Positions 24,044 through 41,188 of a DNA stretch of 64,000 nt are shown piece by piece. A program made the position numbers and the translations under genes. The stretch comes from an uncultured bacterium (GTDB lineage: Bacteria; Verrucomicrobiota; Kiritimatiellia; RFP12; UBA1067): the NCBI GenBank assembly GCA_902764415.1, contig CACWVU010000018.1:1-64000 (forward strand). Direction: 5' to 3'. Below the pieces are notes generated by a model. That model was given only the letters and a program-made list of their open reading frames with translations, was not told the DNA's origin and did no database searches. The number at the start of each line of letters is the position of its first letter. Within the stretch, counting starts at the first letter, position 1.

Positions 24044-27000
24044 ATGAAAAAGACGATGATTCTGACGGCGCTCGCCGCGCTGTCCGCAACCCTCTGCGCC
24101 GAAACGCCGGCCGAGCTCGAGAAGACCTTCGACGAGGCCGTCAAGAGCGGCCGCCCGCTCACCGCCGAGCGCATGTTCACCCAGCTGCTCGAGAAGGGCG
24201 GCAAGCTCGCGCCGATCCGCTACTACCAGGCCGCGGAGGTGTCGCGCGAGCTCGGCAAGTCCGACGACCGCGTCACCCGCCTCTCCCACTTCCTGAAGGA
24301 GGAGCAGAAGTGGACGCCGGAGGTCGAGCACGCGGCGTGGATCCTGTGCAGGGAGGCCGCCAACGCCGACGCCTTCGTGCGCATCGCCGCGAACAAGCCG
24401 GTGCCGCTCTCGCTGCACTGGCAAGGGCTGATGCTCCTCGAGCGCTACACGCGCGAGAAGCGCGCCGCCGACTTCAAGAAGGTGGCCGAGGCGCTGCTGG
24501 AGGCGTTTCCCGATCCCAAGCTCCGCAACGACACTTTCCGCCGCGTCGCCGACATGGCGCTCGCCAACGTGCCCGGCTTCGCGGTGGCCGACGCCAAGTC
24601 GCTCATCGAGCGCTTCCCGAGCTCCAACATGAACGGCATCGAGCGGCTCCTCGCCGCCCGGGGCGGCGACTTTCCGCCGATGTGGCGGCTGCGGTTCTGC
24701 GTCAAGGCGAAGATGCTCCTGGACCCCTCTTCGTTCGAGTCGATCGCGCAGGCCGCCAGCAGCAAGGACGAGGCGGTGCTCGACGAGCTCGTGAAAGGCT
24801 GCCGCGAGCTCGAGAAGCTCGCCTGCGACGGCGAGCACCCCCGCCACGCCGCGACGCTCTACCGCGTCCGCGGGATGCTGAAGGACCGCTACTACGGCAA
24901 GGACAAGGCGGCCGAGGGATCCGCCGACCTGCTGGCGCGGTTCGAGGCCATCGCCGGCGGCAAGGTGAAGCTGCCCGACGACCAGATGCGCAACCTCGCC
25001 GCCTTCAGCGCCGACGCCGGGCGGCTCACCGCGGCGGACGCGGCGAAGCTGCGCAACAAGTACCCGAATTTCGTCCCGACCAACTACATGGGGCAGTTCG
25101 GCATCGTGGAGGCGTGCCGCGCCGCGAAGTCCTCGAAGCCCTACAAGGACTTCATGGCGAAGTATCCGTCGCACATGCGCGCCGAAGCGCGCTACCAGAT
25201 GCTGCGGGTGCTCGCGGAGGTGAAGGACGTCGCCGAGGTGAAGGCCGGCTTCGAGGAGCGGCTCTTCAGGCTGAGCAACGCTGGCGTCGACTTCAACCAC
25301 CTCTCCCTGTCGCTGGCGGATACGGGGCTCTCCGACAAGGACCTCGCGGCCTACCTCGCCGCGCTCTACAAGCGCACCGGTTCGCTCGGCTACTGGGACT
25401 GGTTCCAGCGCGAGAACTGGGCCAGCCGCCGCGTCGCCGCCTTCACCGGCGATGCGGTGACGGCGTTCAGGAAGACGATCGCCAAGGACGTCAAGCCCGG
25501 CGAGCGGATGTTCGCGATCGCGCGGGAGATGAACGGCCTCGGCCGCGGCGCCGGCAACATCGCGCCGCCGCGCGCGCACGAGCTCTTCGCCGAGGCGTGC
25601 AAGCTCTACCCCGGCCTCTACCCGGTCGAAGGCCGCTGGGACAACCCGGTCTTCGAGGCCATCCGCGCGAAGTACATGGACCTCTGCCAGTACCACCCCG
25701 AGTCCGCCGCCACTTGCGCGAAGGCGATGATCGCCAAGCTCGACCCCAAGTCCAAGAGGTTCTGGGAAGCTGGGATAACGGGCAACATATTCTGGAACAT
25801 CCGCGGCAATCCCGCCGTCGCGAGCGAGGTGGCCTTCGCCAGGGTGCGGGCGACCGGCAACATGGACTATCTCGGCGGAGTGTACTTCCCGGAAACGCTC
25901 GACAAGCTGCCGCTCGACCGCAACCTCGTCGTCAACAGCGGCGCCAAGACGTTTTCGGTGGTGGACGCGAACTGGGTCGTCAACGACGCCAGCAAGCGCC
26001 GCATCACGCCGGAGCTGGCGGCCGACATGCTGGCGATCGGCATGCCCAAGCGCGACTGGGCGAACACCGCCGAGGACTGGAACTCGCGCTTCTTCCAGAC
26101 CGCCATTTCGGTGGTCAGGACCAACCCCAAGCTCTTCGAGAAGTTCCCGTTCGCGGAGCTCGCCGCGAAGATCCTCGACACCAAGGGCGTCTCCGAGAAC
26201 CTGAAGCGCAACTTCCTCGTCTTCGCCACCGCGGCGGGCAGGGGGCAGGAGTTCCTCGACCGCTACGTCAAGTCGTTCGCGGCCGACGCGGCGCCGCGCA
26301 AGGTGTCGCTCCTGAGCGCGCTCCTCAGCAACGCCGACATCACGCCGTTCCCGTCCAAGGACCGCAAGGCCGACGTCTTCGGCGACCTGCTGGTGAAGGA
26401 GTACCTCCCGGCGCTCAAGGCCACGCCCGATCGCGCCGCGCCGCGCGCCGACCTCGGCTACTCCGGCTTGGTCGTCAGCAGGTTCTTCGAGTGGCGCAAG
26501 CTCGCCGAGGCCAAGGCGCGGCCCGACTACGCGAGCACCTACGCGCCGACGATCACCGAGTGCGTGCGGCTCAAGTTGGCCGGCGCGAGCGGCTGGGATG
26601 ACCGCGACCGCTCGGTCGGCGGCAACTTCTACAACAACGACTACCGGATCGCGCTGAACGCGACGAACGCGGTGGCGCTCGCGGCCGTCGCCCGCACCGC
26701 CGGCTACTACAGCAACAGCTGGTGGCTGGGGCGCGATGCGACGGAAAAACTGCTCAAGGACACGCGTGCCGCCGAGCTCTGGGAGCCGCTCTACCTGCTC
26801 GTCAGCACCCTGAACGACCAGGACAAGGGCATCAACGCGCTGCTCGTCGAGTGCCGCGCCGAGACCTCGAAGCGGCTGCCGGGCGTCTACCCGGTCTCCG
26901 AGCGCGACCCGCTCTATCCGCTCTACATGGCGGCGGACGAGCTCTCGAAGAACAACGTGGAGAAGGCGACCTCGCTGCTGATGAAGAACCTCACCGCCTT

Positions 27001-30000
27001 CGAGCGCGACGCAATCAGGCTGCCGCCGGACTTCGTGGCGTGGGCGGTGGACCAGATGCGCCTCGCGCGCGGCAACAACGACGAGCTGCTCGTCAAGGCG
27101 CGCGCGCTCGCCTCGCGCCTGCTGGAGGACGAGTCGAGGCTGCCGGCCGAGCTCGCCGCGTCGCTTCTCCTGACCCGCGCCGAGTGCTACCGCGACCAGC
27201 AGAACTTCGAGGTCGCCAAGCTCGAGTACCAGACGATCCGCAACAACCCGGCCTACGCCAAGACCAAGGCGGCGCGCAAGGCGATGTTCCGCTCGATCGA
27301 CCTGATGATCGACACCGGCAACGCCTCCGGCGTGGAGTCGACCCTCGAATACTGGCTCTCGCAGCCCGACGCGGAGATCCAGGCGCAGGCCCACTACTTC
27401 CTCGCGCGCATCGCCTTCGACCGCAAGGACTACGAGGAGTGCCGCAAGCAGCTCAAGGAGGTGTTCTCGATCGACTACACCCACACCGACGGCCGCTTCC
27501 TGGAGGGCCGCTGGAAGCTCGCGACCGGCAACGAGGTGGACGACACCGACGTGCTCATCGGCAGCCTCTCCGACCGCACGATGATCCGCCCCGGCCAGCA
27601 GCTGGCGATCACGGTGCAGGACCGCAACCTCTCCGTCGCCGGCGGCGGCGCGTCGATCCCGGTGGTGATCACCACCAAGCCGGGCGGCGACCGCGAGAAG
27701 ATCTACCTCTACCCGACCCCGCGCGACCCGACGCTCTTCCGCGGCGTCATCGACGTGAAGCTCGGCGAGGCAGTGGTATCCAACCTGACGCTCGAGGTGA
27801 TCGGCGACGACACGGCGACGTACACGATCGAGCCGGAGTACCTGAAGGCTCGCGGTCTGCCGGTCACCGAGTCGAAGGTGCTCAGGGTGGTGGACGACGC
27901 GCGGCTCGCGATCGGCGCGGGTTCGCCGCGCGACGAGGAGGGCGAGACCGAGAAGGCGCTCGAGCGGATGGTCGACTCCGGCGTCGAGTCGCGCGAGCTC
28001 GCGCGTTCGCTCCGTCCCGGCAACCCGCTCTACATCGCGGTGATGGACAAGGATCGCTCGCGCAAGGGCGAGGGCGAGGTGACGGTGTCGCTCTCGACGA
28101 CCTCCGGCGACCGGCTCGACGCGGTCAGGCTCAAGGAGGTGCGCCCCTACAGCGGCATCTTCCGCGGCGTGGTGCCGACCTCGCTGCCGCCGCCGCGCGC
28201 GCACGCCTCCGACACCGCGATCGGCTACAACCCCGGCGACCTCATCAGCACCCGCCGCGACGGCGGCTGGAAGTCGCTCGCCGACGGCAAGCCCGGCAAG
28301 TGGGTCGAGGTGGACACGATGGCGTCCCACGAGTTCTCGAACATTGTCTTCAGAACCGCGAACCCTGAGGCGCTGCGGGCGGTGAGCCTCTCCGGGCGGC
28401 TCTCGGGCGGCGAAATCGCGCTCGGCTCGTTCCCGGCGCCGTCCGCCAAGGGCCGCGCCGGCATGCGCCGCTGGGTGGACTGGCGCAACGGCCTGCGCAC
28501 GGAGCAGGCGATCCGCGACTTCTTCCGCTCGCCGCAGGCGCCGAAGCCGGTGGCGGTGACTAACGTGATGGTCAGCGCGACTGAGCGCAACCGGGCTCCT
28601 TGCGTGGCTTGCGTCAGCGGCGGGTTCAGGGCGCCGGACGACGTCAGCGTGCTGAGGTTCCGGATCGTCCCGCGCGCCACCGGCGGCGACACCTTCCGCC
28701 GGCTGTGGCTCTCGGTCATGGTCGACGGGCGCGAGGTCTACTCCGGCTACGGCGCCACCATCGCCAACCGCATCGTCACCTGCGAGATCACGCCCAAGTG
28801 CCACCTCCTCGAGGTCTTCAGCGTGCAGTACGGCGCCGCGGATGCGTGGGAGCTCTGCTGGGAGCCGGCCTACGGCGAGACGCAGCCGGTGCCGGCGGCC
28901 TGGTTCGACGACACCGCCAACCCCGAGCTCGAGGAGTTCCTCGCCGACAAGGTGAGCATCGTGCGCGTGCCCGAGGGCTTCTCGGCCACGTTCCGCGAGC
29001 CGATCCGCCTCAGGTCCTTCCGGCTCAGCGTGGTCGACCGCGTCGGACCCGACGCGAGCCTCGACAAGATCACCGCGACCGACTGGTCCGGCAACGAGAT
29101 CCTGCCGGTCGAGAGCGACTTCTCCGAGGTGCAGCGCAACGACCGGCTCGAGGTCGCGCCCGGCGACCGCATCTCCGCCACCTACGTGGACGAGACGACG
29201 TCCTCCGGCCTCAAGCGCGTCCTCACCAAGACGGTGAGCTCGTCCTTCAACAACGCGTCGGTGGGCTTCTACTTCGAGGAGGTCCACGTGACCAGCTACG
29301 GCAGCCAGAGCCACCTGAACACCGCCTACCGGTTCGTCCCCGGCGACACGCTGCTGGTGGCGGTATTCGACCCTGACCAGGACCTCACCGACGAGGCCGA
29401 CAAAGTCACTGTGAAGATCGTCTCCGACTCCGGCACCGAGCGCGAGATCACGCTCGCCGAGCAGAACAAGTCGTACGGCGGCATTCCGTGGCATTCGCCC
29501 GACGACGTGTCGGGCGTCCACAGCGGATTCTTCCTGGGGCTCCTCAAGACGGCTCCGGCGGGGAACACCAACGCGGCGGCGCGGGCGGCCTTCCCGGTGA
29601 CGGCCGACGACGCGCTCACGGCGTCCTACGACGACCGCGAGAACACCACCCCCGGCATTCCGTTCGTGCGCACCGCCAAGGTGGTCTCAGCGCGCGAGGA
29701 GCCGCCGGTGCTGACGCTCTACCAGACCGCGGCGAAGCGCGTCGTCGACACCTCGCACGGCGCGGAGATCCGCCTCGCGGCGCTCCGCCGCCGCGCCGGC
29801 AACGACAAGGTGACCACGCTCTACCGCGACGTCTACAGCGCGACTCCGATGCCGCAGGAGGTGTGCGACTCCACCAACCTGATTCCGGTGAACGCGGCGG
29901 CCCCGCTGCCGATCCGCGTGGTCGAGCCCTCGCGCGCCCGCCACCGCGATTCCTACCTGGTGCTGAGCGCCGTCGCCGACAGCGAGCTCAAGCGCGCCGA

Positions 30001-31747
30001 GGCGGACGGCGACGACCCGCAGGTCAAGAAGATGCACCTCGGCCTCGGCGCCGGCTTCGACATGCCGGGCTTCCCGGTCAACATCGCCCGCGGCGGACAG
30101 TCGTTCGACGAGGCGCGCAAGGCGGGCAGCTTCAACGGCTCGATGCGCTTCGCGGTCGGCGGCATCGACTTGAAGGGCGACCAGGAATACCGTGCCGGCC
30201 ACGACGGCGAAGACGGCCCGATCGTGCTGCCGGTCAACGGCTCCGACACGGTGACGATCACGGTGACCGACTCGAAGGGCGTCGAGCTCGCGAAGCGCCG
30301 GCTGGAGCTCGTCTCCGACGCCGCGTTCTCGCTCGTCGACTCCTCGTGGTCGGCCGAGCGCACCGCCGCGCACGTCGGCGAGAAGTTCTACCTGCGCATC
30401 GACGACGCCGACCGCGACGTCAGCGAGGAGCCCGACAACGTGGAGGTGGACGTCGCCACCACCGGCGGCACCGTCCGCAAGGTGGTGCTCACCGAGACCC
30501 TGCCGCACTCGGGCGTCTTCACCGGCACGGTGCGGCCTACGATCTTCGTGCCCGGCGAGACGATCCCCGAGGTGACGACGGGCGCGGAGGCGTCGGTGGA
30601 GATGCTCCTTTCCGACGACCGCATCCCGGTGAAGTTCGGCGAGAAGCTGACGATGACCTACCGCGACGAGCGGGTGCTGCCCGGCACCGACCCGCGCACG
30701 CTCGCGGTGACGGGCACGGTCTACAAGGGCGCGGACGGCTCGATCCGCCTCTTCTCCAAGCGCTTCCGCGACGTCGACTCCGCGGTGCTGGTGCAGTTCC
30801 GGCTCGCCGAGTGCCTCTTCGAGCAGGCCAAGGACTACCGCAAGCTGCGCCAGAACGAGAAGAGCTCCGAGGCGATCGCCAAGGGCCGCGCGATCCTCGA
30901 GGAGGCGCTGAAGAACAACCCCGAGAGCGCCCACGTGGCGCAGGGCGAGTTCCTGCTCGCCAACCTCTACCAGGAGCTGGCGGCCGAGGAGGAGGTGCAG
31001 GCGAAGAGCCTGCGCAAGGAAGGGGAGACGGAGGCGGCCGAGGAGGCCGAGAAGAAGTCGCGTCTCCTCTACGCCGAGGCGCTGGCGCGCTTCTCGTCCA
31101 TCCTTGCGGTCTGGCCCGAGGGCGACTACGCGCCGCGCGCGCAGTACCACAAGGCCTACTGCCTGGAGATGCTCAAGGAGTACAAGCTCGCCGGCGAGGA
31201 GTACGTGAAGATGACCTACATGTACCCGGAGTCGGACCTCGTGGGCGACGCCACCATCCGCCTCGCCACCTACTACTACAAGGAGGAGAAGAAGTACGAG
31301 ACCGCCGCGCGCATCTACGGCAGCTTCGCGCGCCGCTTCCCGAACCACGACAAGGCGGCCCGTGCGCTCTTCATGTGCGGCAGCTGCTACATCAAGGAGG
31401 GTGAGGCGATCGTCAAGCGGGCCGAGGCGGCGGCGATGAAGGAGGCCGAGAAGCGGGGTTCCGCCTTCACCGGGCTCCACGGCGTGCCGCTCGCCGCGGC
31501 GGAGTGCTTCACCCACGCCGTCAACTCGTTCGTGGACATGACCGAGAAGTACGCCGCCACCACCACCCCCGAGCTGCGCGCCCAGGGCCTCTACTGGGCC
31601 GGCGACGCATCGCTCCGCAAGGACGACGCCAAGGCCGCCTACATCTTCCTCAAGCGCACGGTGCTTGAGTACCCGGAGACCGAATGGGCCCGCCGTGCCC
31701 GCGGCCTCATGCTCCAGAACGGCAAGGCTTTCAAGGACCTCGACTGA
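24044..31747 (+). CDS. Giant exported TPR / beta-sandwich protein
   Basis: A 2,567-residue protein with a signal peptide (MKKTMILTALAALSATLCA). The start at 24044 is preferred over an in-frame ATG at 24032 because GGAG lies six bases before it. Residues about 20-1170 are helical and repeat-like (TPR/SEL-type). From about 1170 to 2230 come several beta-sandwich repeats with a D-x-D...SGxFxG pattern: YIAVMDKDRSRKGEG with PYSGIFRG, LVAVFDPDQDLTDEAD with HSGFFLG, and YLRIDDADRDVSEEPD with HSGVFTG. The acidic loops could bind calcium. Residues about 2246-2567 are TPRs like those of YbgF/BamD-type periplasmic proteins. It is first in an operon with two smaller exported TPR proteins. Function unknown; a large periplasmic or surface scaffold is plausible. 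Confidence 0.8.
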   Translation: MKKTMILTALAALSATLCAETPAELEKTFDEAVKSGRPLTAERMFTQLLEKGGKLAPIRYYQAAEVSRELGKSDDRVTRLSHFLKEEQKWTPEVEHAAWILCREAANADAFVRIAANKPVPLSLHWQGLMLLERYTREKRAADFKKVAEALLEAFPDPKLRNDTFRRVADMALANVPGFAVADAKSLIERFPSSNMNGIERLLAARGGDFPPMWRLRFCVKAKMLLDPSSFESIAQAASSKDEAVLDELVKGCRELEKLACDGEHPRHAATLYRVRGMLKDRYYGKDKAAEGSADLLARFEAIAGGKVKLPDDQMRNLAAFSADAGRLTAADAAKLRNKYPNFVPTNYMGQFGIVEACRAAKSSKPYKDFMAKYPSHMRAEARYQMLRVLAEVKDVAEVKAGFEERLFRLSNAGVDFNHLSLSLADTGLSDKDLAAYLAALYKRTGSLGYWDWFQRENWASRRVAAFTGDAVTAFRKTIAKDVKPGERMFAIAREMNGLGRGAGNIAPPRAHELFAEACKLYPGLYPVEGRWDNPVFEAIRAKYMDLCQYHPESAATCAKAMIAKLDPKSKRFWEAGITGNIFWNIRGNPAVASEVAFARVRATGNMDYLGGVYFPETLDKLPLDRNLVVNSGAKTFSVVDANWVVNDASKRRITPELAADMLAIGMPKRDWANTAEDWNSRFFQTAISVVRTNPKLFEKFPFAELAAKILDTKGVSENLKRNFLVFATAAGRGQEFLDRYVKSFAADAAPRKVSLLSALLSNADITPFPSKDRKADVFGDLLVKEYLPALKATPDRAAPRADLGYSGLVVSRFFEWRKLAEAKARPDYASTYAPTITECVRLKLAGASGWDDRDRSVGGNFYNNDYRIALNATNAVALAAVARTAGYYSNSWWLGRDATEKLLKDTRAAELWEPLYLLVSTLNDQDKGINALLVECRAETSKRLPGVYPVSERDPLYPLYMAADELSKNNVEKATSLLMKNLTAFERDAIRLPPDFVAWAVDQMRLARGNNDELLVKARALASRLLEDESRLPAELAASLLLTRAECYRDQQNFEVAKLEYQTIRNNPAYAKTKAARKAMFRSIDLMIDTGNASGVESTLEYWLSQPDAEIQAQAHYFLARIAFDRKDYEECRKQLKEVFSIDYTHTDGRFLEGRWKLATGNEVDDTDVLIGSLSDRTMIRPGQQLAITVQDRNLSVAGGGASIPVVITTKPGGDREKIYLYPTPRDPTLFRGVIDVKLGEAVVSNLTLEVIGDDTATYTIEPEYLKARGLPVTESKVLRVVDDARLAIGAGSPRDEEGETEKALERMVDSGVESRELARSLRPGNPLYIAVMDKDRSRKGEGEVTVSLSTTSGDRLDAVRLKEVRPYSGIFRGVVPTSLPPPRAHASDTAIGYNPGDLISTRRDGGWKSLADGKPGKWVEVDTMASHEFSNIVFRTANPEALRAVSLSGRLSGGEIALGSFPAPSAKGRAGMRRWVDWRNGLRTEQAIRDFFRSPQAPKPVAVTNVMVSATERNRAPCVACVSGGFRAPDDVSVLRFRIVPRATGGDTFRRLWLSVMVDGREVYSGYGATIANRIVTCEITPKCHLLEVFSVQYGAADAWELCWEPAYGETQPVPAAWFDDTANPELEEFLADKVSIVRVPEGFSATFREPIRLRSFRLSVVDRVGPDASLDKITATDWSGNEILPVESDFSEVQRNDRLEVAPGDRISATYVDETTSSGLKRVLTKTVSSSFNNASVGFYFEEVHVTSYGSQSHLNTAYRFVPGDTLLVAVFDPDQDLTDEADKVTVKIVSDSGTEREITLAEQNKSYGGIPWHSPDDVSGVHSGFFLGLLKTAPAGNTNAAARAAFPVTADDALTASYDDRENTTPGIPFVRTAKVVSAREEPPVLTLYQTAAKRVVDTSHGAEIRLAALRRRAGNDKVTTLYRDVYSATPMPQEVCDSTNLIPVNAAAPLPIRVVEPSRARHRDSYLVLSAVADSELKRAEADGDDPQVKKMHLGLGAGFDMPGFPVNIARGGQSFDEARKAGSFNGSMRFAVGGIDLKGDQEYRAGHDGEDGPIVLPVNGSDTVTITVTDSKGVELAKRRLELVSDAAFSLVDSSWSAERTAAHVGEKFYLRIDDADRDVSEEPDNVEVDVATTGGTVRKVVLTETLPHSGVFTGTVRPTIFVPGETIPEVTTGAEASVEMLLSDDRIPVKFGEKLTMTYRDERVLPGTDPRTLAVTGTVYKGADGSIRLFSKRFRDVDSAVLVQFRLAECLFEQAKDYRKLRQNEKSSEAIAKGRAILEEALKNNPESAHVAQGEFLLANLYQELAAEEEVQAKSLRKEGETEAAEEAEKKSRLLYAEALARFSSILAVWPEGDYAPRAQYHKAYCLEMLKEYKLAGEEYVKMTYMYPESDLVGDATIRLATYYYKEEKKYETAARIYGSFARRFPNHDKAARALFMCGSCYIKEGEAIVKRAEAAAMKEAEKRGSAFTGLHGVPLAAAECFTHAVNSFVDMTEKYAATTTPELRAQGLYWAGDASLRKDDAKAAYIFLKRTVLEYPETEWARRARGLMLQNGKAFKDLD

Positions 31748-33429
31748 TGAAGCGCTTCAGCATGAGACCTGCGGCCGTCTTCGCCGCGTTCGCGCTCGCC
31801 GCCGCGGCGGCGGCGCCCGCCTTCGGCTGGGAATGGGAGTGGAACTGGCGGATGCCGGGCGACATCTACAAGGGGCTCGAGTTCGAGTCCCGCAACGCCG
31901 TCGACCGCGCCTACAAGGCGACCTCGGCCGCCATGGACGCCGCCCGCGCCGGCGCGCGGCCGACCGACCTGGTGCCGCGCTTCCGCGCCGCCGCCGCCGA
32001 GTGGCGCAAGGTGGAGATCCAGGCCGAGAGCGACAACACCAGCGACGCGCTCCTCGCCTACGCCGGGTTCATGCAGGGCTACACCCGCATGAAGGCGCAC
32101 GACGTCAACGAGGCGGTCAAGTTCTACGGCCAGGTGGTCGACCTCTACGACGACGAGCGCTGGATCGCCTTCCCGGCCCGCTACTTCATCGGGCGCACCA
32201 AGATCGACATGGGCGACACCCGCGCCGGCTGGCCGCTCATCGAGGAGCTCGTCGACGACGAGGCCGACGCCAAGCACCCGCTCATGGGCAACGTCCTTAA
32301 GGAAGTCGGCTGGCGGTGGTGGGACTCAGGCCGCGAGGCCGAGGCGCAGGAGCTCTGGGAGCGCGGGGCGAAGCCGTGGTTCGCGGAGTCCAACCGCAGC
32401 GCCTGGGACAGCTGCCGCTACGGCCTGCTCCTCGCCTGCACGGTGCGCGGCGACTTCGGTGCGCTCGAGGAGTTCATCTTCGCCGGCGTCAAGGAGGACG
32501 ACGCCAAGCGCCGCGCCGACATCGTGGTCGACAACCGCAACTGGGTGCTCGGCCAGCTCAACAACGGCGGCTCGGGCGTCTGCAGCTACTACGCGCGCAA
32601 GTTCCCCAAGGAGGCGGAGCGCAAGGCGAAGCTCGCCGACTTCCGCCGCCGCTACATCAAGTGGTACCTCGAGAAGCGCCCGCTCTTCGTCTCCGCCGGC
32701 CGCGAGTTCGAGTTCGACGTCTCGGCGATCAGGCTCGGCTACGGCGTCGACAGCCGCGAGGAGACGAACGCGAAGATCCTCAAGCTCGTCGCCGGCCTCC
32801 AGCAGGTCAAGGACCCGAAGCAGCGCGACGCCAGGGTGCGCACGATCGTTGGGCTCTACTACGACCTCGGCGACTACTCCGCCGCGCTCATCCTGGCGGA
32901 CAAGATATCCGAGCCGCTGGCCGCCTCGTGGCTCCGGTACGAGATCTGCCGCACCGCCTCCGACCGCGGCAAGCCGATGTGGAAGGAGTGCCTCGCCCAC
33001 CTCGACGAGTACATCAAGCGCAAGCCCGACGCCGGCCAGCTCCTGAACGCGAAGTACATCATCGTCTGGATCTGCCGCGAGCGCACCGGCGACCTCGAGC
33101 GCGCGCTGAAGACCTGCCTTGACATCAGCGACCCCCCGAGGTCGCTCTGGGAGCTCACCTGGACCTACCGCAAGCTCGGCGACAAGAAGAAGGCCGAGAA
33201 CTGCCTCGTCGAGATTTCGTCGATGTTCGCCAACGACGCGCCGCGCGCGGTGCTGACCCTGGCGCAGCTCTGCGAGCAGGACGGCGACAAGAAGAAGGCG
33301 ATCGCGCTTTACCGGCGGCTCCTGTCGCAGCCGGAGTGGAAGAAGACCGGCGAGTCCTCCCAGGCCCACCAGGCGCTCGAGCGCCTCGGCGAGCGCACGG
33401 GCGGCGCGATGGTCAACGAGGTGCACTGA
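31747..33429 (+). CDS. Exported TPR protein
   Basis: 560 residues with an Ala-rich signal peptide ending near APAFG, then a Trp-rich start to the mature protein (WEWEWNW). The rest is helical with TPR-like pairs, such as TIVGLYYDLGDYSAALILAD and TWTYRKLGDKKKAENCLVEI and a final LAQLCEQDGDKKKAIALYRR. The start overlaps the stop of the giant gene, so it is translationally coupled. Probably a periplasmic partner of the giant protein. Confidence 0.75.
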   Translation: MKRFSMRPAAVFAAFALAAAAAAPAFGWEWEWNWRMPGDIYKGLEFESRNAVDRAYKATSAAMDAARAGARPTDLVPRFRAAAAEWRKVEIQAESDNTSDALLAYAGFMQGYTRMKAHDVNEAVKFYGQVVDLYDDERWIAFPARYFIGRTKIDMGDTRAGWPLIEELVDDEADAKHPLMGNVLKEVGWRWWDSGREAEAQELWERGAKPWFAESNRSAWDSCRYGLLLACTVRGDFGALEEFIFAGVKEDDAKRRADIVVDNRNWVLGQLNNGGSGVCSYYARKFPKEAERKAKLADFRRRYIKWYLEKRPLFVSAGREFEFDVSAIRLGYGVDSREETNAKILKLVAGLQQVKDPKQRDARVRTIVGLYYDLGDYSAALILADKISEPLAASWLRYEICRTASDRGKPMWKECLAHLDEYIKRKPDAGQLLNAKYIIVWICRERTGDLERALKTCLDISDPPRSLWELTWTYRKLGDKKKAENCLVEISSMFANDAPRAVLTLAQLCEQDGDKKKAIALYRRLLSQPEWKKTGESSQAHQALERLGERTGGAMVNEVH

Positions 33430-33474
33430 CGGGGGCGCCGAAACCGACAACGTTCAACCAAGGAGAGAGAGCAA

Positions 33475-35682
33475 ATGAAGAAAGTTCTGATGATCGCCAT
33501 GGCAGCCGCGTGCGCCGCGGCGTTCGCCCAGGAGGCCAAGAAGGACGCGAAGCCGGTCGACCCGGCCAAGGCGGCCGCGCAGGCCGAGAAGCGCGCCGAG
33601 CGCATGGTGAAGACCGCGGTCGGCCTCATCGCCGACAAGGAGGAGGACCGCGGCGTCGGCATGCTCGAGGCCGTCGCGAGGATGTACCCAGACTCGCAGG
33701 CGAAGTACGCCGCCGCGCTCGAGCTCGGCCGCCACTTCACCGGCAAGCGCGACTTCGAGCGCGCGCTCATCGAGCTGAAGAAGGCGTTCTCGGCCACCAA
33801 CGACGAGACCCGGGCGGAGTCGCTGCTCCTCCAGGGCGAGCTCTACGTCGCCAAGAACCAGCCCGGCGAGGCCGCGATGGTGTTCCGCCGCATCACCCAG
33901 GACTTCCCGACCAGCGACTTCGCCAACGACGCCTTCTTCAAGATCGGCCAGATCCACTTCGCGGCCGGCCGCTGGGCGCGCGCGTCCGAGGCGTTCGAGA
34001 TGGTCGGCACCGCCGTCCCCGCCTCCGCCGACACCAACTCCGCCGTGCTCGTCGAGTCCGGCCAGCGCATCTACGTGCACGTCACCGACAAGGACCTCGC
34101 CGTCCTCGCGGCGATGGGCGAGAAGTCCAAGGTCAAGCTCCTCGGCTCCGACGGCGACGAGGAAGTGGTCGAGCTCGCCGCGTTCGGCAAGGGCGACGGC
34201 GATTTCATCGCCTCCTGCAAGACCACCGTCGCGCCCTCCGCGAAGGGCGACGGCGTCCTCACCGTGCGCGGCAAGGACGACGTCAAGGTCGTCTACGTCG
34301 ACGCCAACACCCAGTCCGGCGAGGTCAACCTGAACCGCATCGCCAGCGCCTCCACCGTCTCCTCGGCGACGCTCACCTTCCTCGACGGCGCGATGCGCCA
34401 GAAGGTGAAGGGCGTGTTCGTCGACCAGCCCGCGTTCGTGCGCCTCCGCGACCTCGACCTGGACGCGACCGACGGCAAGGACAAGGCGAAGGTTGTGGTG
34501 AAGTCCATGTACCGCGAGCGCCCGGAGCCCGCGCCGGGCGAGCTCGTCGCCCCGCCGCCGCCGCCGGACGCGCCGTGGCTCGTGCGCAGCGAGGTGGAGA
34601 TCGACCTCGAGGAGGTCGAGCCGCGCGCCGGCATCTTCGCCGGCCGCATCGTGACACGCCTCATCCCCGCCGACACCAACAAGATCGTCCAGCTTCCGCC
34701 CGGCGAGATCTACGCCAACGCCGAGGACAAGCTCGTCGCCGAGTACACCGACCAGCGCCACCTCGCCGGCGTCAAGCCGGTCCAGCGCACCGCCGAGGCC
34801 GTGGTGCTCGTCGGCGGCTCCACCGAGCCGCAGTCGATCGTCGCCCACGCCAGCGAGGCGACGGTCCAGGCCAAGAAGCTCCTCCTCGAGGCGCAGCTGC
34901 TCCAGAAGTGGGGCGCCATCTTCAAGGAGGTCGGCCTCATGGACAGCGCCTCCGAGAAGTCCGCCGAGGGCCTCAAGCGCATCTCCGAGGTCTTCGACCT
35001 CGCCTCGCGCAACACCCTCGAGCGCAGCGTCATCGAAAGCGCCTACGAGACCAGGTGGAACCTCTTCCTCGTCAGGAACGACCTCAAGAACGCCGTCGAC
35101 ACCTGCAACGCGCTCGTCAAGCGCTTCCCCGACACCCCGCTCGCCGACCGCGCCTTCATGCAGATCGCCATGGCCCGCCGCGAGGAGAAGGCGCCCGGCG
35201 CCGAGGACGCCGCCATCGCCATCTTCAACGCCATCCTCGGCCTGCCGGTCTCCCAGCTCAAGGCCGAGGCGCTCTACCGCATCGGCGAGACGCTCGAGAC
35301 CAAGGCCCGCAAGGCCGCGGCGAGTTCCAGGAACCGCCACGCCAAGCCGGACTTCTCCGCGGCGATCACCGCCTACAGCCGCTGCGCCGAGGGGTATCCG
35401 TCCAGCGCCTTCGCCGGCGAGTCCTACAAGCGCATGGTCGACTACTACGTCTCCATCAAGTCCTTCTCCAAGGCCACCGAGATCATCAACCGCGTGCTCG
35501 AGGACTACCCCGATGCGCCGTGGCTCGACGAGATGCTGCTGAAGTGGGGCGTCATCCTCCACCGCCAGGGCGACCGCGAGGGCGCCGTCGCCAAGTTCCG
35601 CCAGATCCTCGAGGAGTATCCCGGCGGCAAGGCGGCCAAGCAGGCAACGAGCTTCCTCAAGCGCCTCGAGGAGGACGAGTGA
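33475..35682 (+). CDS. Exported TPR protein with a central beta-sandwich
   Basis: 735 residues with a signal peptide (MKKVLMIAMAAACAAAFA) and an AAGGAGAGAG ribosome binding site. N-terminal TPRs cover about residues 40-180. A beta-rich middle follows (VRLRDLDLDATDGKDKAKV, then EPRAGIFAGRIV) whose acidic-loop-plus-AGIFAG pattern matches the beta repeats of the giant protein. C-terminal TPRs run from about 450 to the end. It looks like a reduced copy of the giant architecture, suggesting common ancestry or co-assembly. It overlaps the M18 aminopeptidase start by one base. Confidence 0.75.
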   Translation: MKKVLMIAMAAACAAAFAQEAKKDAKPVDPAKAAAQAEKRAERMVKTAVGLIADKEEDRGVGMLEAVARMYPDSQAKYAAALELGRHFTGKRDFERALIELKKAFSATNDETRAESLLLQGELYVAKNQPGEAAMVFRRITQDFPTSDFANDAFFKIGQIHFAAGRWARASEAFEMVGTAVPASADTNSAVLVESGQRIYVHVTDKDLAVLAAMGEKSKVKLLGSDGDEEVVELAAFGKGDGDFIASCKTTVAPSAKGDGVLTVRGKDDVKVVYVDANTQSGEVNLNRIASASTVSSATLTFLDGAMRQKVKGVFVDQPAFVRLRDLDLDATDGKDKAKVVVKSMYRERPEPAPGELVAPPPPPDAPWLVRSEVEIDLEEVEPRAGIFAGRIVTRLIPADTNKIVQLPPGEIYANAEDKLVAEYTDQRHLAGVKPVQRTAEAVVLVGGSTEPQSIVAHASEATVQAKKLLLEAQLLQKWGAIFKEVGLMDSASEKSAEGLKRISEVFDLASRNTLERSVIESAYETRWNLFLVRNDLKNAVDTCNALVKRFPDTPLADRAFMQIAMARREEKAPGAEDAAIAIFNAILGLPVSQLKAEALYRIGETLETKARKAAASSRNRHAKPDFSAAITAYSRCAEGYPSSAFAGESYKRMVDYYVSIKSFSKATEIINRVLEDYPDAPWLDEMLLKWGVILHRQGDREGAVAKFRQILEEYPGGKAAKQATSFLKRLEEDE

Positions 35683-37058
35683 TGAAGCGCGCCGCCCGCA
35701 CCGCCTCGCTTGAGGCCTATTCCGCCGAGTACCTCAGGTACCTCGGCGTCGCCAAGACCGCCCGCCGCAGCTACGCCGAGAGCGTGCGCATCCTCGAGGC
35801 CGCCGGTTTCCGCGAGCTCGGCTCCTTCCGGACCCTCAAGCCCGGCGCCCGCGTCTGGCGCGGCTGCGAGGACCGCACCGTGATGGCCGCGGTCATCGGC
35901 CGCCGGAGCGTCGCCGAGGCCGGCATCAAGGTGGTCGGCGGCCACACCGACGCGCCGCGGCTCGACCTCAAGCCGCGCCCGGTCTACGAGAAGGGCGGCG
36001 CCGTCTACTTCGACTGCCACATCTACGGCGGCATCAAGAAGTACCAGTGGCTCACCCTGCCGCTCGCGCTCTACGGCACCGTCGTCCGCAAGAACGGCTC
36101 CAGGGTCGAGATCGCCGTCGGCGACGGCCGCAACGACCCCGTCTTCATGATCACCGACATCCTGCCCCACCTCGGCAAGGACCAGGCCAAGAAGACCCGC
36201 GACGAGTTCTTCGCCGCCGAGGACCTCGACCCCGTCTGCTGGTCCACGCCGGGGAAGAAGAAGGGCAAGGACGGCGCCGACGGCGCCCCAAACGCCGACC
36301 GCTCCGGGTTCGTCGCCTACCTGAAGAGGAAGTACCGCATCGACGAGGAGGACCTCCTCAGCGCCGAGCTCGAGATCGTGCCCGCCGGAATGCCGCGCGA
36401 GGTCGGCTTCGACCGCGCGCTCATCGCCGGCTACGGCCACGACGACCGCGTCTGCTCCTTCGCCGCGCTGAAGGCGCTCGTCGACGCGTCGAAGTCCGTC
36501 CCCGAGGTCACCGCCTCGATCCTGATGTGCGACAAGGAGGAGATCGGCTCGGTCGGCTCCACCGGCATGCAGAGCTCGTTCTTCGAGAACACCGTCGCCG
36601 AGCTCGTGGAGCGCCAGGAGAAGTCGCCGCGCGACATCATGGTGCGGCGCGCGCTCGAGCGCTCGACGATGCTCTCGGCGGACGTCACCGCGGCGGCCGA
36701 CCCGCATTTCCCGGACGTCGACTCGACCGGCAACGAGGCGCGCCTCCACCGCGGCGTCGCGGCCTCGAAGTACACCGGCGGCACCTCCAAGGGCGGCGCG
36801 AGCGACTGCGGGCCGGAGTTCATCGCCGAGATCCGCCGGATAATGGCGGAGGAGGGGGTGGCCTGGCAGATGGCGGAGCTCGGCAAGATGGAGAAGGGCG
36901 GCGGCGGCACGATATCGCAGTACATGGCCCGCTTCGGGATGAAGGTGCTGGACATGGGCACGCCGATGTGGAACATGCACGCGCCGTGGGAGATCGTCTC
37001 CAAGTTCGACGCCTGGTCCACCTACCGCGCCTACTCCGCCTACCTCCGCGCCAAGTAG
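35682..37058 (+). CDS. M18 family aspartyl aminopeptidase
   Basis: A 458-residue zinc aminopeptidase of the M18 family, which removes N-terminal acidic or neutral residues from peptides. Metal and catalytic motifs are visible: VVGGHTDAPRLDLKP (first His/Asp), CDKEEIGSVGSTG (catalytic and bridging acidic pair), SADVTAAADPHFPD, and GTPMWNMHAPWE near the end for the last His. Length fits the family. It is cytoplasmic, without a signal peptide, although it is coupled to the exported TPR operon upstream. Confidence 0.92.
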   Translation: MKRAARTASLEAYSAEYLRYLGVAKTARRSYAESVRILEAAGFRELGSFRTLKPGARVWRGCEDRTVMAAVIGRRSVAEAGIKVVGGHTDAPRLDLKPRPVYEKGGAVYFDCHIYGGIKKYQWLTLPLALYGTVVRKNGSRVEIAVGDGRNDPVFMITDILPHLGKDQAKKTRDEFFAAEDLDPVCWSTPGKKKGKDGADGAPNADRSGFVAYLKRKYRIDEEDLLSAELEIVPAGMPREVGFDRALIAGYGHDDRVCSFAALKALVDASKSVPEVTASILMCDKEEIGSVGSTGMQSSFFENTVAELVERQEKSPRDIMVRRALERSTMLSADVTAAADPHFPDVDSTGNEARLHRGVAASKYTGGTSKGGASDCGPEFIAEIRRIMAEEGVAWQMAELGKMEKGGGGTISQYMARFGMKVLDMGTPMWNMHAPWEIVSKFDAWSTYRAYSAYLRAK

Positions 37059-37095: not shown

Positions 37096-38691
37096 ATGAA
37101 AGAACAGGAACGCGAGGAACTGCACAGAACAATCTGGTCGATAGCCAACGATCTTCGCGGCGCCGTCGACGGATGGGACTTCAAGCAGTATGTCCTCGGC
37201 ATGCTGTTCTACCGCTACATCTCCGAGAACCTGGCGTCATACGTCAACCGCGGTGAGCGCGACGCGGGCGACAAGTCGTTCGACTACGCTTCCCTTTCCG
37301 ACGCGGAGGCGGAGAGCGCACGCGCCGACCTCGTAAGCGTCAAGGGCTTCTTCATTCTTCCGAGCCAGCTCTTCGCGAATGTGCGCGAGCGCGCGTCGTC
37401 CGACGAGAACCTGAACGAGACGTTGAGCGCCGTGTTCCGCTCCATCGAGGACAGCGCGCGCGGAACCGAGAGCGAAAGCGACTTCGCCGGGCTTTTCGAC
37501 GACCTCGACGTGAACTCGAAGAAACTCGGTGCCACCGTCGAACAGCGCAACGACCGCCTTGTGAAGCTCATGAACGGCGTCGGCGAGATGAAACTCGGCG
37601 ACTACAAGGACAACACGATCGACGCGTTCGGCGACGCCTACGAGTTTCTGATGGGCATGTATGCCTCGAACGCCGGCAAGTCCGGCGGCGAGTTCTTCAC
37701 GCCCCAGGAGGTGAGCGAGCTTTTGACGCGCCTCGCGGTCGGCAAGAAGAAGGAGGTCAACAAGGTCTATGACCCCGCCTGCGGCTCTGGTTCGCTGCTC
37801 CTCAAGGCGGCGAAGGTGCTCGGCAAGGAGCATGTGCGGCTCGGATTCTTCGGGCAGGAGATCAACATCACGACCTATAACCTCTGCCGCATCAACATGT
37901 TCCTGCACGACATCGACTATGACAAGTTCGACATCGCGCTCGGGGACACGCTGACCGCGCCGCAGCACTGGGACGACCAGCCGTTCGAGGTGATCGTCTC
38001 CAATCCGCCTTACTCGATCCATTGGGAGGGCGACGCGGACGCGACGCTCATCAACGACCCGCGCTTCTCGCCCGCCGGCGTCCTCGCGCCAAAGTCGAAG
38101 GCCGACCTCGCGTTCATCATGCACTCGCTCGCGTTTCTCGCGACGAACGGCACGGCGGCGATCGTATGCTTCCCCGGCATCATGTACCGCGGCGGCGCGG
38201 AGCGGAAGATTCGCCAGTATCTTGTCGACAACAACTTCGTGGACGCGGTGATACAGCTTCCCGACAACCTCTTCTTCGGCACCTCCATCGCGACGTGCAT
38301 CATGGTGATGAAGAAGGGCAAGCGCGACAACTCGGTGCTGTTCGTGGACGCGAGCGAGGAGTGCGTGAAGGTGACGAACAACAACAAGCTGACCGAGGAC
38401 AACATAAAGAGCATTCTCGCGCTCGTCGCGGAGCGGAAGGAGAAGGTCGAGCACAAGTCGCGGCTCGTGCACCGCGACGAAATTGCCGAGAACGACTTCA
38501 ACCTCTCGGTCTCGACATACGTCGAGCAGAAGGACACCCGCGAGAAGATCGACATCGTGAAGCTCGAGGCAGAACTTAAGGAGATAGTCGCAAAAGAGGC
38601 GAAGCTCAGGGCGGCCATCGACGAGATCGTGGCCGAGCTAAGCGGCAGCGCTGGGCTTGCGCCAGCCCAACAGAACAGGGGGGCGAGGTAG
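37096..38691 (+). CDS. hsdM: Type I restriction-modification DNA methyltransferase subunit
   Basis: 531 residues. It has an N-terminal helical HsdM domain, SAM-binding motif [13 protein letters not shown] near residue 230 and the N6-adenine motif NPPYSIHW near 303. HsdM with HsdS methylates adenine in a bipartite target and protects the host. The ribosome binding site is AAGGTGAG. The last 17 residues ([17 protein letters not shown]) are not typical of HsdM and are encoded by the left half of a palindromic element. The stop codon overlaps the GTG of the transposase gene. Confidence 0.94.
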
Positions 38692-38732
38692 TGGTGGCGT
38701 TTGGTTCTGTTGGCGCGGCGTCAGCCGAGCCC
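38648..38732 (+). repeat. Palindromic element copy 1 (end of hsdM / start of RAYT gene)
   Basis: A bipartite inverted repeat. The left arm has a hairpin (GGGCT/AGCCC) then CCCAACAGAAC; the right arm has GTTCTGTTGG then a hairpin with tetraloop GTCA (CGGC-GTCA-GCCG at 38717-38728). It spans the hsdM stop and the transposase start, so both proteins take their ends from it. Confidence 0.8.
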
Positions 38733-39905
38733 AAGAACAAGATGCTTCAGCGCTGCTGGGGCTGGGACTACAGGGCCGCGTGCATCTACTCGATAACAAT
38801 TGCCATCGCCGACCGCCCATCGATGGCTCTTGGGCGGCTTGTCGTCGACAATGACGGCGGCGGCGACCCTGCGAAGGTGGTGGCCCATGTCGAGCTGACG
38901 GCGGCGGGGCGGGCGGTCGAGGCCGAGTGGCGGCGCATGGGCGAGTTTACACCCGCGATAAGGCCGCTCGAGATTCAGATAATGCCCGACCACATTCATT
39001 TCATCTTGCGGGTGACTGAGCGGCTTGCACGCCCGCTCGGCCAGATAATTGCCGGCTTCAAGACGGGCAGCTCGAAGGCGGCGACCGGCAAGCCTGGCTT
39101 CTGGAGCGAGGGGTTTCAAGATACAATACTCTTTCGCGAGGGCCAGCTCGAGAACATGTTCAACTATGTGCGCGACAACCCGCGGCGGCTGGCGGTGAAG
39201 CGGCTCTACCGCGAGTTCTTCACGGTCAGGCGAGACTTGGCGGTGAGGCTCACGCCAAACCAACAGAACAACAGCGACAGTTCTGTTGACTTGGCGTTAG
39301 CCAAGCCGATGACGCTTCATTTTCAGGCGATTGGCAACGAGGCGCTTTTGAAGGTCCCGGCGATATTTCAGGTGCAGTGCTCGCGCTCTTACCTCGCCTA
39401 CAAGCGCGTGGCAAAGCCAGGCGGGGGCCGCAAGATCGCGCGCGATGATTGCGGGCGGCCGATAATCGAAACTGAGACGGGCGAGTTTCGCGAGAAGCTC
39501 GAGGTTCTGCTTGCGATGGCGGCGAAGGGCGCGGTCTTGATATCGCCCTGTATCTCGGACGGCGAGCGAGAGATCGCCCGCCGCGCGATGGAGGCGGGCG
39601 CGAGGCTGATAACGCTCTCGAACAAGGGATTTTCAAAGCTCTTCAAGCCGGGCGGCAAGGCGTTTGAGAGCGCGAGCGAAGGGCGGCTCTTGATGCTCGC
39701 ACCCGCCGCCTGGCCCTACCAGCCCGGCGAGAAGAAGATGACGCGCTTCGACGCCTGTGCGCTAAACCGCATAGCCCAGCTTATCGCGGGCGAGGGCGCG
39801 GCAGAGATAAACTACCACGGCATGAAGCCGGGCAATGTAGATGGGCTGGTGGCGGAGGCTTGCCGAGCGGACGCTCGGCCAACTGCACAGGAGGGCGCGC
39901 GATGA
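38691..39905 (+). CDS. REP-associated tyrosine transposase (RAYT, IS200-like) with SLOG/DprA-like C-terminal domain
   Basis: 404 residues from the GTG that overlaps the hsdM stop; an ATG at 38742 may be the true start, since the first 17 codons are palindromic-element sequence. The N-terminal half is a Y1 HUH transposase: MPDHIHFIL carries the HUH motif near residue 100, and FNYVRDNPRR carries the candidate catalytic Tyr. RAYTs mobilise REP palindromes at single-stranded DNA level. The segment at about residues 186-205 is itself a palindromic element. The C-terminal half (KGAVLISPCISDGEREIARR, then ALNRIAQLIAGEG) looks like a DprA/SLOG Rossmann-type nucleotide- or DNA-binding domain. Gene position inside a type I R-M operon is unusual. 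Confidence 0.82.
   Translation: MVAFGSVGAASAEPKNKMLQRCWGWDYRAACIYSITIAIADRPSMALGRLVVDNDGGGDPAKVVAHVELTAAGRAVEAEWRRMGEFTPAIRPLEIQIMPDHIHFILRVTERLARPLGQIIAGFKTGSSKAATGKPGFWSEGFQDTILFREGQLENMFNYVRDNPRRLAVKRLYREFFTVRRDLAVRLTPNQQNNSDSSVDLALAKPMTLHFQAIGNEALLKVPAIFQVQCSRSYLAYKRVAKPGGGRKIARDDCGRPIIETETGEFREKLEVLLAMAAKGAVLISPCISDGEREIARRAMEAGARLITLSNKGFSKLFKPGGKAFESASEGRLLMLAPAAWPYQPGEKKMTRFDACALNRIAQLIAGEGAAEINYHGMKPGNVDGLVAEACRADARPTAQEGAR
39247..39304 (+). repeat. Palindromic element copy 2 (inside the RAYT gene)
   Basis: The left arm is GGC-TCAC-GCC followed by CCAACAGAAC; the right arm is GTTCTGTTG followed by TTGGC-GTTA-GCCAA (39291-39304). It is read in frame and forms the linker between the transposase domain and the C-terminal domain. 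Confidence 0.8.
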
Positions 39906-41188
39906 GCAGATTGAGCAGAGCCGCCGCTGGCGGCGAGTTGAGAGTTGATGATGGTTGCGTTGGCGCGGCGTTAGCCGGGCCACGCCGTTGGCTCGGCTCG
40001 GCTGTTGAGTGGAAGAAGCTGGGAGAGGTGGCAAAAATTTGCCGAGGAGTTCGCGTTGTCAAGAAAGAATTGACGGATGATGGCAAATATGCTGTTTATC
40101 AAAACAGCTTAAAGCCGCTTGGTTATTACGGCGAAGCCAATGTAAATGGCGGTACTGCTTTTGTAATAGGCGCTGGCGCGGCAGGAGAGGTTGGCTATAG
40201 CGAACAAGATTTTTGGGCGGCGGATGATTGCTACTATATTGACGGAGGAGAGCGGTTGATTGGGCGCTATGTTTACTATTGCCTGACCTCGCGGCAAGAT
40301 TGGCTGTTGGGCAAGGTCAGAAAAGCCAGTATACCCAGGTTGTCTAGAGATTTTATTGCCGCACTTGAAATCCCCCTCCCGCCTCTTCCCGTACAGCGCG
40401 AAATTGTCCAGATACTGGACAATTTCGCAAACTTGACAGCGGAGCTGACAGCGGAGCTGGCGAAGCGAAAGAAGCAATATGAGCATTATCGAGATATGTT
40501 GCTGAATTTCGAGGGGGGGGGCAGATATGATAAGTTTGGAGTTGAGAGTGGTGAGTTTAGAGTTGAATGGAAGCGGCTGGGGGAGATTTGCGATATGGTA
40601 ACAGACTATACAGCAGCAGGGTCGTTTGCTGACATTGCTCGGAATGTCGAGTATAAAAGGGAAGTTGATTTTGCACAACTAGTTAGAACTACTGACATTA
40701 AGAGCCGCTTTACGAAGGAGGCACAAATCTTTATTTCAGAATCGGCTTATAAGTATTTATGGCGGGTACATTTGGATCAAGCATCGATAGTTCTGCCAAA
40801 CATTGGGAATTGTGGCGAAGTTTATTTCATAACACCAGACATCTTACCATACAAGAAAAGTGCTTTGGCGCCCAATGCATTGTTGATTAGAAGTTCAAAT
40901 ATTGATCTCAAATTTCTTTATTATTGGTTTACAGGAGATGATTTCCAGAAACGATTGAAGAAAATTGTTTCGCCAGTAGGGCAAGGAAAGTTCAACAAGA
41001 CTGAACTAAAACAATTATTAATTCCCCTTCCTCCTCTCGCCGAGCAGGAGCGCATAGTTGCCATACTTGACCGCTTTGACGCTCTTTGCAACTCGCTGAC
41101 CGAGGGGCTGCCGGCTGAGATCGCGCTGAGGAAGAAGCAATACGAGTATTACCGCGACAAGCTGTTGAGCTTCAAGGAGGTCGGTTGA
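39902..41188 (+). CDS. hsdS: Type I restriction-modification specificity subunit
   Basis: 428 residues with two target-recognition domains, each entered through VEWK(K/R)LGE (about residues 36 and 218). The domains are separated by conserved helices (LPVQREIVQILDNFANLTAE, YEHYRDMLLNF) and end with the matching LAEQERIVAILDRFDALCNS and YEYYRDKLLSF. The first 35 residues are mostly palindromic-element sequence; ordinary HsdS proteins reach VEWK sooner. A run of nine Gs (40513-40521) sits at the hinge after the first domain. The second domain is clearly AT-richer than its surroundings, a sign of domain replacement. It overlaps the RAYT gene (ATGA) and hsdR. Confidence 0.92.
   Translation: MSRLSRAAAGGELRVDDGCVGAALAGPRRWLGSAVEWKKLGEVAKICRGVRVVKKELTDDGKYAVYQNSLKPLGYYGEANVNGGTAFVIGAGAAGEVGYSEQDFWAADDCYYIDGGERLIGRYVYYCLTSRQDWLLGKVRKASIPRLSRDFIAALEIPLPPLPVQREIVQILDNFANLTAELTAELAKRKKQYEHYRDMLLNFEGGGRYDKFGVESGEFRVEWKRLGEICDMVTDYTAAGSFADIARNVEYKREVDFAQLVRTTDIKSRFTKEAQIFISESAYKYLWRVHLDQASIVLPNIGNCGEVYFITPDILPYKKSALAPNALLIRSSNIDLKFLYYWFTGDDFQKRLKKIVSPVGQGKFNKTELKQLLIPLPPLAEQERIVAILDRFDALCNSLTEGLPAEIALRKKQYEYYRDKLLSFKEVG
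39920..39990 (+). repeat. Palindromic element copy 3 (5' end of hsdS)
   Basis: A GCCGCC/GGCGGC hairpin at 39920-39934 is followed by a degenerate middle. Then comes a right arm GTTGGCGCGGC-GTTA-GCCGGGCC nearly identical to the right arm of copy 1 (CGGC-GTTA-GCCG at 39966-39977). The element encodes most of the atypical HsdS N-terminus. The left boundary is uncertain. Confidence 0.65.
40513..40521 (+). repeat. Poly-G tract (9 G) at the hsdS hinge
   Basis: Nine consecutive Gs lie between the two target-recognition domains. Loss of one G leads to a stop about 26 codons on; gain of one G leads to a TGA three codons on. Either change would leave a single-domain HsdS, as in phase-variable type I systems such as NgoAV of Neisseria. 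Confidence 0.75.

Follow-up and report, generated by a model that had tools for sequence, protein, structure and literature searches.

An exported giant TPR protein and its two partners form an eight-gene set with a Tol/Exb-type motor across the PVC superphylum

The window analyzed in this study was a 64,000-nucleotide stretch of DNA from an uncultured bacterium of the Kiritimatiellia (GenBank assembly GCA_902764415.1, contig CACWVU010000018.1, positions 1 to 64,000). On its plus strand, three consecutive genes at positions 24044 to 35682, designated P1, P2 and P3, encode exported proteins with tetratricopeptide repeats (TPR). P1 (24044..31747) is a giant of 2,567 residues, in which the open reading frame, Pfam matches and homologues revealed a signal peptide, a long N-terminal region, a region of β-domains and a C-terminal TPR region. 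P2 (31747..33429) is a TPR protein of 560 residues by its Pfam matches; it overlaps P1 by a TGATG stop/start and adjoins P1 or P3 in nearly all loci surveyed. P3 (33475..35682; 735 residues) has a TPR-β-β-TPR layout according to its reading frame, Pfam TPR matches and an AlphaFold2 (AF2) model. The gap of 45 bases between P2 and P3 contains a AGGAGAGAG-like ribosome site. Across relatives, we found that this trio belongs to a set of eight genes that includes a motor of the ExbB-ExbD-ExbD type, and the membership of the set was well supported.

P1 is encoded by a single open frame running from the ATG at 24044 to the stop at 31747, with a second in-frame ATG 12 bases upstream. An antisense frame of 1,830 residues lies opposite P1 (24029-29521); long antisense frames are common in GC-rich DNA, and this one was dismissed as an artefact of that kind. 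Homologues of P1 with 25-59% identity over the compared region retain the plus-strand frame across more than 2,000 residues (40 homologues exceed 2,000 residues), and the uninterrupted 7.7-kb frame pointed out by the initial annotation of this DNA is therefore real and not a GC artefact. All three proteins begin with a hydrophobic signal-like sequence. As evident from the sequence and an N-terminal survey of homologues, the predicted signal peptide of P1 (approximately residues 1-20; 24044..24103) has no lipobox, a motif that was rare among the homologues of P1 (3/40), P2 (2/49) and P3 (0/52). Significant Pfam matches to TPR/YfiO were found in P2, P3 and the C-terminus of P1, which bore out the initial description of three coupled genes for exported TPR proteins. 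Pfam, NCBIfam and PADLOC, the last scanned without P1, provided no specific name for the three proteins beyond TPR/YbgF-like.

The AF2 model of P3 was built from 45 sequences and had a mean predicted local distance difference test (pLDDT) score of 85.9 and a predicted template modeling (pTM) score of 0.50. In this model, a TPR region (residues 30-176) is followed by two β-sandwiches (187-446) and a second TPR region (462-734). The sandwiches (34033..34812) were assigned as putative S-layer-type immunoglobulin (Ig)-like domains from the model, structural comparison with VIA and the alignment; upon superposition, they matched the last resolved Ig pair of 8c8k, the S-layer protein of Nitrosopumilus maritimus, with a VIA Z-score of 15.9 over 215 residues. 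Residues D326, D328 and D330 were invariant in the alignment of 45 homologues, which suggests a cation site. The C-terminal TPR region scored 113 bits against TIGR02795 (YbgF; cut-off, 90) and 75 against the CpoB equivalog NF008068 (cut-off, 383).

For P1, residues 1180-2330 were modeled from 37 sequences (mean pLDDT of 82.3 and pTM of 0.60), and the region was nearly all β, with helices thereafter. It begins with predicted S-layer-type Ig-like domains carrying D-x-D and S-G-x-F-x-G motifs (residues 1180-1380; 27581..28183), which were assigned from AF2, from Foldseek and VIA matches to the N. maritimus S-layer protein and from an hhalign match to the P3 repeat. The next part is a CBM32/discoidin-like jelly roll (residues 1382-1683; 28187..29092), which VIA aligned with an Akkermansia sialidase (Z-score of 14.8; root mean square deviation (rmsd) of 2.3 over 121 residues). 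The jelly roll is split by a PA14-like domain (residues 1468-1633; 28445..28942) that resembled a Marinomonas PA14 domain in VIA (Z-score of ~12; rmsd of 3.4 over 149 residues). More β-domains assigned with VIA and hmmsearch occupy residues 1684-2228 (29093..30727) and end in another predicted S-layer-type Ig pair, residues 1885-2228 matching the 8c8k pair with a VIA Z-score of 16.0 over 218 residues. Additionally, the N. maritimus S-layer protein was the best Foldseek match of P1 in the PDB (E 4e-25), and it was the sole PDB protein matched in an hmmsearch run from the final Ig domain of P1 (E 1.9e-8 to 8c8k). The C-terminal TPR region (residues 2244-2567; 30773..31744) was recognized by Pfam YfiO/TPR and NCBIfam YbgF-like matches. 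In residues ~25-1090 no recognized repeats were found, and the profile of residues 601-1180 matched TPR near 1095-1145 only. P2 matched TPR/PPR solenoids.

P1 and P3 both contain the acidic-loop repeats with the S/A-G-x-F-x-G pattern that the initial annotation had noticed and likened to those of large surface proteins, and the repeats of the two proteins were homologous by profile comparison (hhalign probability of 99.3, E 5e-20). It had also named unrelated folds as an outcome that would speak against its reading; in the AF2 models, P1 and P3 share folds. Judged from these models, the two proteins share S-layer-type Ig domains whose closest counterpart in the PDB is the Nitrosopumilus S-layer protein. 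The N. maritimus S-layer is an archaeal surface lattice whose protein has ten Ig-like domains, and we know of no motor for it. Like P1 and P3, this protein (structures 8c8k-8c8r; PMC11153153) has Ig-like domains with a D-x-D and E-T-x-x-(S/T)-G-x-F-x-G pattern.

A scan of the named genomes with the P3 alignment yielded 56 loci and, after removal of a spurious one (L122), 55 loci from Kiritimatiellota, Lentisphaerota, Verrucomicrobiota and Planctomycetota, including Phycisphaerae. The term lineage-specific in the initial annotation was thus too narrow. Several hosts were rumen or gut bacteria, and others belonged to free-living aquatic lineages. The co-occurrence in relatives on which that annotation had staked its reading was observed, as the trio was complete in 47 of the 55 loci; six loci had two of the genes and two had one, and the incomplete loci ended at contig edges, with the exception of L078. 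The genes of the set often overlap and were found in three orders: P1-P2-P3-ExbB-ExbD1-ExbD2-TM-DUF4159, where TM is a one-helix transmembrane protein (order A); P2-P3-P1-(small gene)-ExbB-ExbD1-... (order B); and DUF4159-P1-P2-P3 (order C). An ExbB gene lay next to the trio in 34 of the 41 loci with room for it, defined as at least 1.6 kb beyond the trio. The seven others were four loci of the window's own clade, in which an M18 aminopeptidase gene adjoins the trio, L082 (DUF4159 upstream), L101 and L078; where the trio adjoins M18, and in the case of L101, DUF4159 was found on other contigs of the genome concerned. A further apparent case of unlinked genes (G051) was rejected, as the contig there breaks inside the DUF4159 gene. 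On the complete 5.7-Mb chromosome of G339 the set is present twice, and in one copy two giants follow each other; the linkage is therefore not an assembly effect. Two giants, placed around P3 or in tandem, were seen in some sets (L112, L108, L111 and L125-L126).

Clustering of the neighbours of all loci revealed a single widely recurring extra gene, the small gene of order B (12 loci). Its product is a poorly conserved protein of 131-276 residues encoded between P1 and ExbB (15688-16122 of L095 and 11 similar loci), and many members carry an R/K-(V/I)-D-(T/V)-G-x-W motif. Neighbouring genes for FHA proteins, oxidoreductases and sulfatases were of local occurrence.

The five remaining genes of the set, which come after the trio in order-level relatives, encode an ExbB/TolQ protein (PF01618), two different ExbD/TolR proteins (PF02472), the TM protein of ~150 residues and a protein of ~560 residues with DUF4159 (PF13709) at its end. 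In the window genome these genes are not linked to the trio; we found them on another contig, C32 (G000:C32:15435-19010, equivalent to 5435-9010 of L060, minus strand), and it is for this reason that the motor half cannot be seen in the window. The C32 ExbB matched PF01618 with an E-value of 2.4e-30, and both C32 ExbD proteins matched PF02472. ExbB homologues retain the channel stretches GM(T/C)GTVTGMI and EAL(I/V)xTAxGL, and the ExbD helix aspartate (D21, the proton site) was invariant in 17/17 sequences of both ExbD kinds. Among NCBIfam models, ExbB was nearest to TolQ, under the equivalog cut-off. PADLOC defence models, which include Zorya-like motor systems, gave no match to the seven proteins of the set that were scanned (P1 excepted).

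The TM protein has 103-206 residues in most homologues, and its linker is mostly rich in Lys, Ala and Glu. A histidine was invariant in 21/21 sequences, with Ser or Ala four residues earlier, as in TonB and TolA, and the protein ends in a short conserved acidic tail, e.g., PPEVEPLPPKKEFQLGDDLSLD or LPAKSGVNLDDIDDL. The window genome's copy showed no vWA match in Pfam. In the DUF4159 protein, approximately five hydrophobic helices could be read from the alignment ahead of the domain, which itself matched 4i66, an uncharacterized protein (E 2e-11). Going by its family and by an alignment in which no Cys is conserved, the DUF4159 domain is GATase-like and probably non-enzymatic. As read from the sequence, the DUF4159 protein has an N-terminal extension of FHA-like domains in two loci (L084, 14176-16242; L085, 14649-16958), and in a third (L076, 15891-16508) such domains are encoded immediately downstream of it. 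These domains recall GltG of Myxococcus.

The association of the genes was also evident independently of linkage. In a profile search of 388 genomes of the phylum, P1, scored by its second Ig domain, was found in 22, P3 in 23 and DUF4159 in 23, with all three in 22. P3 occurred without the others in G026, where the contig ends, and DUF4159 did so in G395, a genome that is 82% complete. Among 30 near relatives, strong P1 matches and a full-length DUF4159 protein of the C32 type were present in the same seven genomes. Fisher tests gave ~1e-33 for the phylum and 5e-7 for the near relatives; these values count species and not independent gains and are indicative only. TonB_C and OmpA/Pal-type proteins occurred outside the set in genomes with or without it, and the set is therefore an accessory machine.

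We consider it probable that the eight genes encode a trans-envelope machine of the Tol/Exb/Agl type, driven by the proton-motive force, in which the trio provides the exported output and acts as a glycan-gripping scaffold. The initial annotation was right in proposing an exported envelope complex with shared β-repeats, and a secretion or adhesion complex, which it had suggested, may be one form of it; it was incomplete, as the set also comprises the motor, the TonB/TolA-like transducer and the DUF4159 protein. In the proposed machine, ExbB, ExbD1 and ExbD2 would form one Tol/Exb-type motor in the inner membrane, and the TM protein, a putative transducer by its His motif, would pass motion to the periplasm through its charged linker. 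C-terminal tails are commonly bound by TPRs, and the acidic tail of the TM protein probably docks on a TPR groove in one of the three exported proteins. Next to the motor, the DUF4159 protein with its five helices would present a periplasmic, probably non-enzymatic domain, while P1-P3 would be a load-bearing scaffold of TPR and S-layer-type Ig domains. A glycan is proposed as the load because P1 carries the CBM32/PA14-like module, which may grip peptidoglycan, capsule or a surface polymer that the motor would then pull on or remodel. Assembly into a single complex, the transduction of force and its direction, and the glycan load are all inferred; judged from sequence, the task may be traction, uptake or tethering of the wall or outer membrane.

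Several observations weigh against this reading. In particular, the TM protein had no TonB_C or TolA_C domain in Pfam or NCBIfam, and of the SHLS motif known from publications it retains just the S/A and the H, with the L and S not in place. The usual Asp-Asp calcium pair was not evident in the PA14-like domain of P1, whose lectin role is a prediction. No outer-membrane protein was found to be encoded within the set. L078 has P3 alone, away from a contig end, and DUF4159 was not found in its genome (1.8 Mb); this genome and nearly all others surveyed are metagenome-assembled genomes.

The Agl motor consists of one TolQ-like and two TolR-like proteins. In Myxococcus xanthus, GltG combines FHA and TonB parts, and GltI is a TPR protein of 4,132 residues, listed without a signal peptide in the published table (PMC3169522). 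The set resembles the Agl-Glt/Nfs systems in its motor composition, exported TPR proteins, giant TPR protein, TonB-like transducer and FHA domains, and it may thus be a surface-motility or polymer-moving machine, in which the motor would shift the giant scaffold along the cell envelope, pulling a glycan of the surface or a contact with the substrate along with it. We regard this as unlikely, since the set has no counterpart of the outer-membrane barrels GltA/B/H or of GltF, and P1-P3 had no Glt match in NCBIfam, where the only match was a weak one of GltJ to the TM protein. Furthermore, the published list of Glt proteins contains no S-layer-type Ig or DUF4159 parts, and on the features tested, the set is not a member of Agl-Glt.

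The CBM32/PA14-like folds of P1 and the rumen or gut origin of several hosts would also fit energized glycan uptake or processing, in which the scaffold binds polysaccharide and the motor drives import, as in the TonB systems of polysaccharide degraders; in Fibrobacter, ExbB/ExbD/TonB and TPR proteins are jointly upregulated on cellulose (PMC6851124). However, the neighbour clustering revealed no conserved TonB-dependent receptor, porin or hydrolase beside the set, canonical TonB_C proteins are encoded elsewhere in these genomes, and some hosts are of free-living aquatic lineages, which makes this explanation doubtful.

A second Tol-Pal-like system, which would tether or constrict the outer membrane or wall, appeared comparably improbable. 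The set shares with Tol-Pal a TolQ-like and TolR-like motor, with TolQ the best score of ExbB, the TolA-like helix motif and, in part, a YbgF-like TPR region, as the P3 C-terminus exceeds the TIGR02795 cut-off but falls short of that of the CpoB equivalog. It differs in having two TolR proteins and a giant scaffold and in lacking the TolA C-domain, TolB and Pal, the last two by neighbour clustering. Its patchy distribution (23/388) is unlike that of a housekeeping system, and a replacement of Tol-Pal by the set was ruled out by the presence of TonB_C and OmpA/Pal-type proteins with or without it. The homology of the Ig domains to the Nitrosopumilus S-layer protein, and weakly to that of Kuenenia, would suggest that the trio is a passive surface layer, or a periplasmic meshwork as the initial annotation had proposed, with functionally unrelated motor genes as neighbours. 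This is very unlikely, since the motor genes accompany the trio whichever of the three gene orders applies and also where the two halves are apart, and the Ig domains are limited to P1 and P3 and framed by TPRs.

Tol/Exb/Mot-type proton motors are the power source of processes that include motility and uptake as well as wall tethering and defence, and further users continue to come to light. The nearest published relative of the eight-gene set is the predicted TPR-TolQ-TolR-TolR-vWA transducer cluster of bacteria of the Planctomycetes-Verrucomicrobia-Chlamydiae (PVC) superphylum (PMC12204202, 2025). Both are found in PVC hosts, with a TPR gene adjoining one TolQ-like gene and two TolR-like genes that differ from each other, and both have a transducer with the TonB/TolA histidine. 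In contrast to the vWA transducer, the short one of the set lacks a globular domain, and the set further comprises a separate DUF4159 protein with five helices and the exported trio, including the giant with its predicted S-layer-type Ig and CBM32/PA14-like domains; no giant is described in the part of that report consulted. Searches of the literature on DUF4159 and on ExbD with TPR, which did not cover most subscription papers or any preprints, found no paper that mentions DUF4159, no published description of the gene set and nothing closer than this cluster. We suggest, tentatively, that the set could represent an undescribed class of PVC trans-envelope nanomachine. A proton motor of the Tol type would act directly on a giant scaffold of TPR, S-layer-type Ig and lectin-like domains in the periplasm or at the surface, and this scaffold would be a structure, S-layer-like or for the handling of glycans, that is kept in active motion. 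The set is a well-bounded user of such motors in the superphylum, widely but patchily kept, with a scaffold unusual in size and make-up. Three hypothetical exported proteins thereby become a testable machine in which S-layer-type Ig domains are tied to a force generator, and the split between contigs illustrates that the reading of a single window can overlook half a system.

The window genome also encodes a second cluster, on contig C15 (L065, 2054-9425), with the order TPR-TPR-ExbB-ExbD-ExbD-TM/toroid. It resembles the set in having a large TPR protein before ExbB and two ExbD proteins, but it lacks P1, P2 and DUF4159, and its last gene encodes a one-helix protein with a linker rich in Pro and a toroid-like domain that weakly matched Pec_lyase. 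We rejected this cluster as the motor of the trio, since such ExbD pairs occur in near relatives without the trio, whereas the C32 genes track the trio exactly. In L094 (3573-22001), a giant-type set is adjacent to a TPR-ExbB-ExbD set of the C15 type, which hints that the two types share an origin. The protein in the transducer position of L094 begins with a zinc-ribbon-like CxxC...CxxC sequence.

Downstream of P3, the neighbour survey identified the M18 aminopeptidase gene (35682..37058, plus strand), which sits where the motor genes would be. It overlaps P3 by TGATG, and the operon therefore comprises at least four genes. The aminopeptidase was dropped as a core subunit, since only within the window clade (four loci) does it adjoin the trio. 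At 58764-60199, an exosortase gene (58764-59606; PF09721, E 5e-47) is followed by one for a DUF3485 (EpsI-like) protein, and this pair probably indicates a PEP-CTERM-like sorting system in this genome. Sorting of P1-P3 by the exosortase was rejected, as the C-termini of the three proteins showed no sorting signal. Directly after the M18 gene lies a type I restriction-modification locus (HsdM, HsdS and HsdR; 37096-44280), within which the GC content falls to 52% at 40-42 kb compared with ~68% around it, which suggests recent acquisition. Between HsdM and HsdS, a frame at 38691-39905 had no Pfam match and resembles a REP-type transposase fused to another region.

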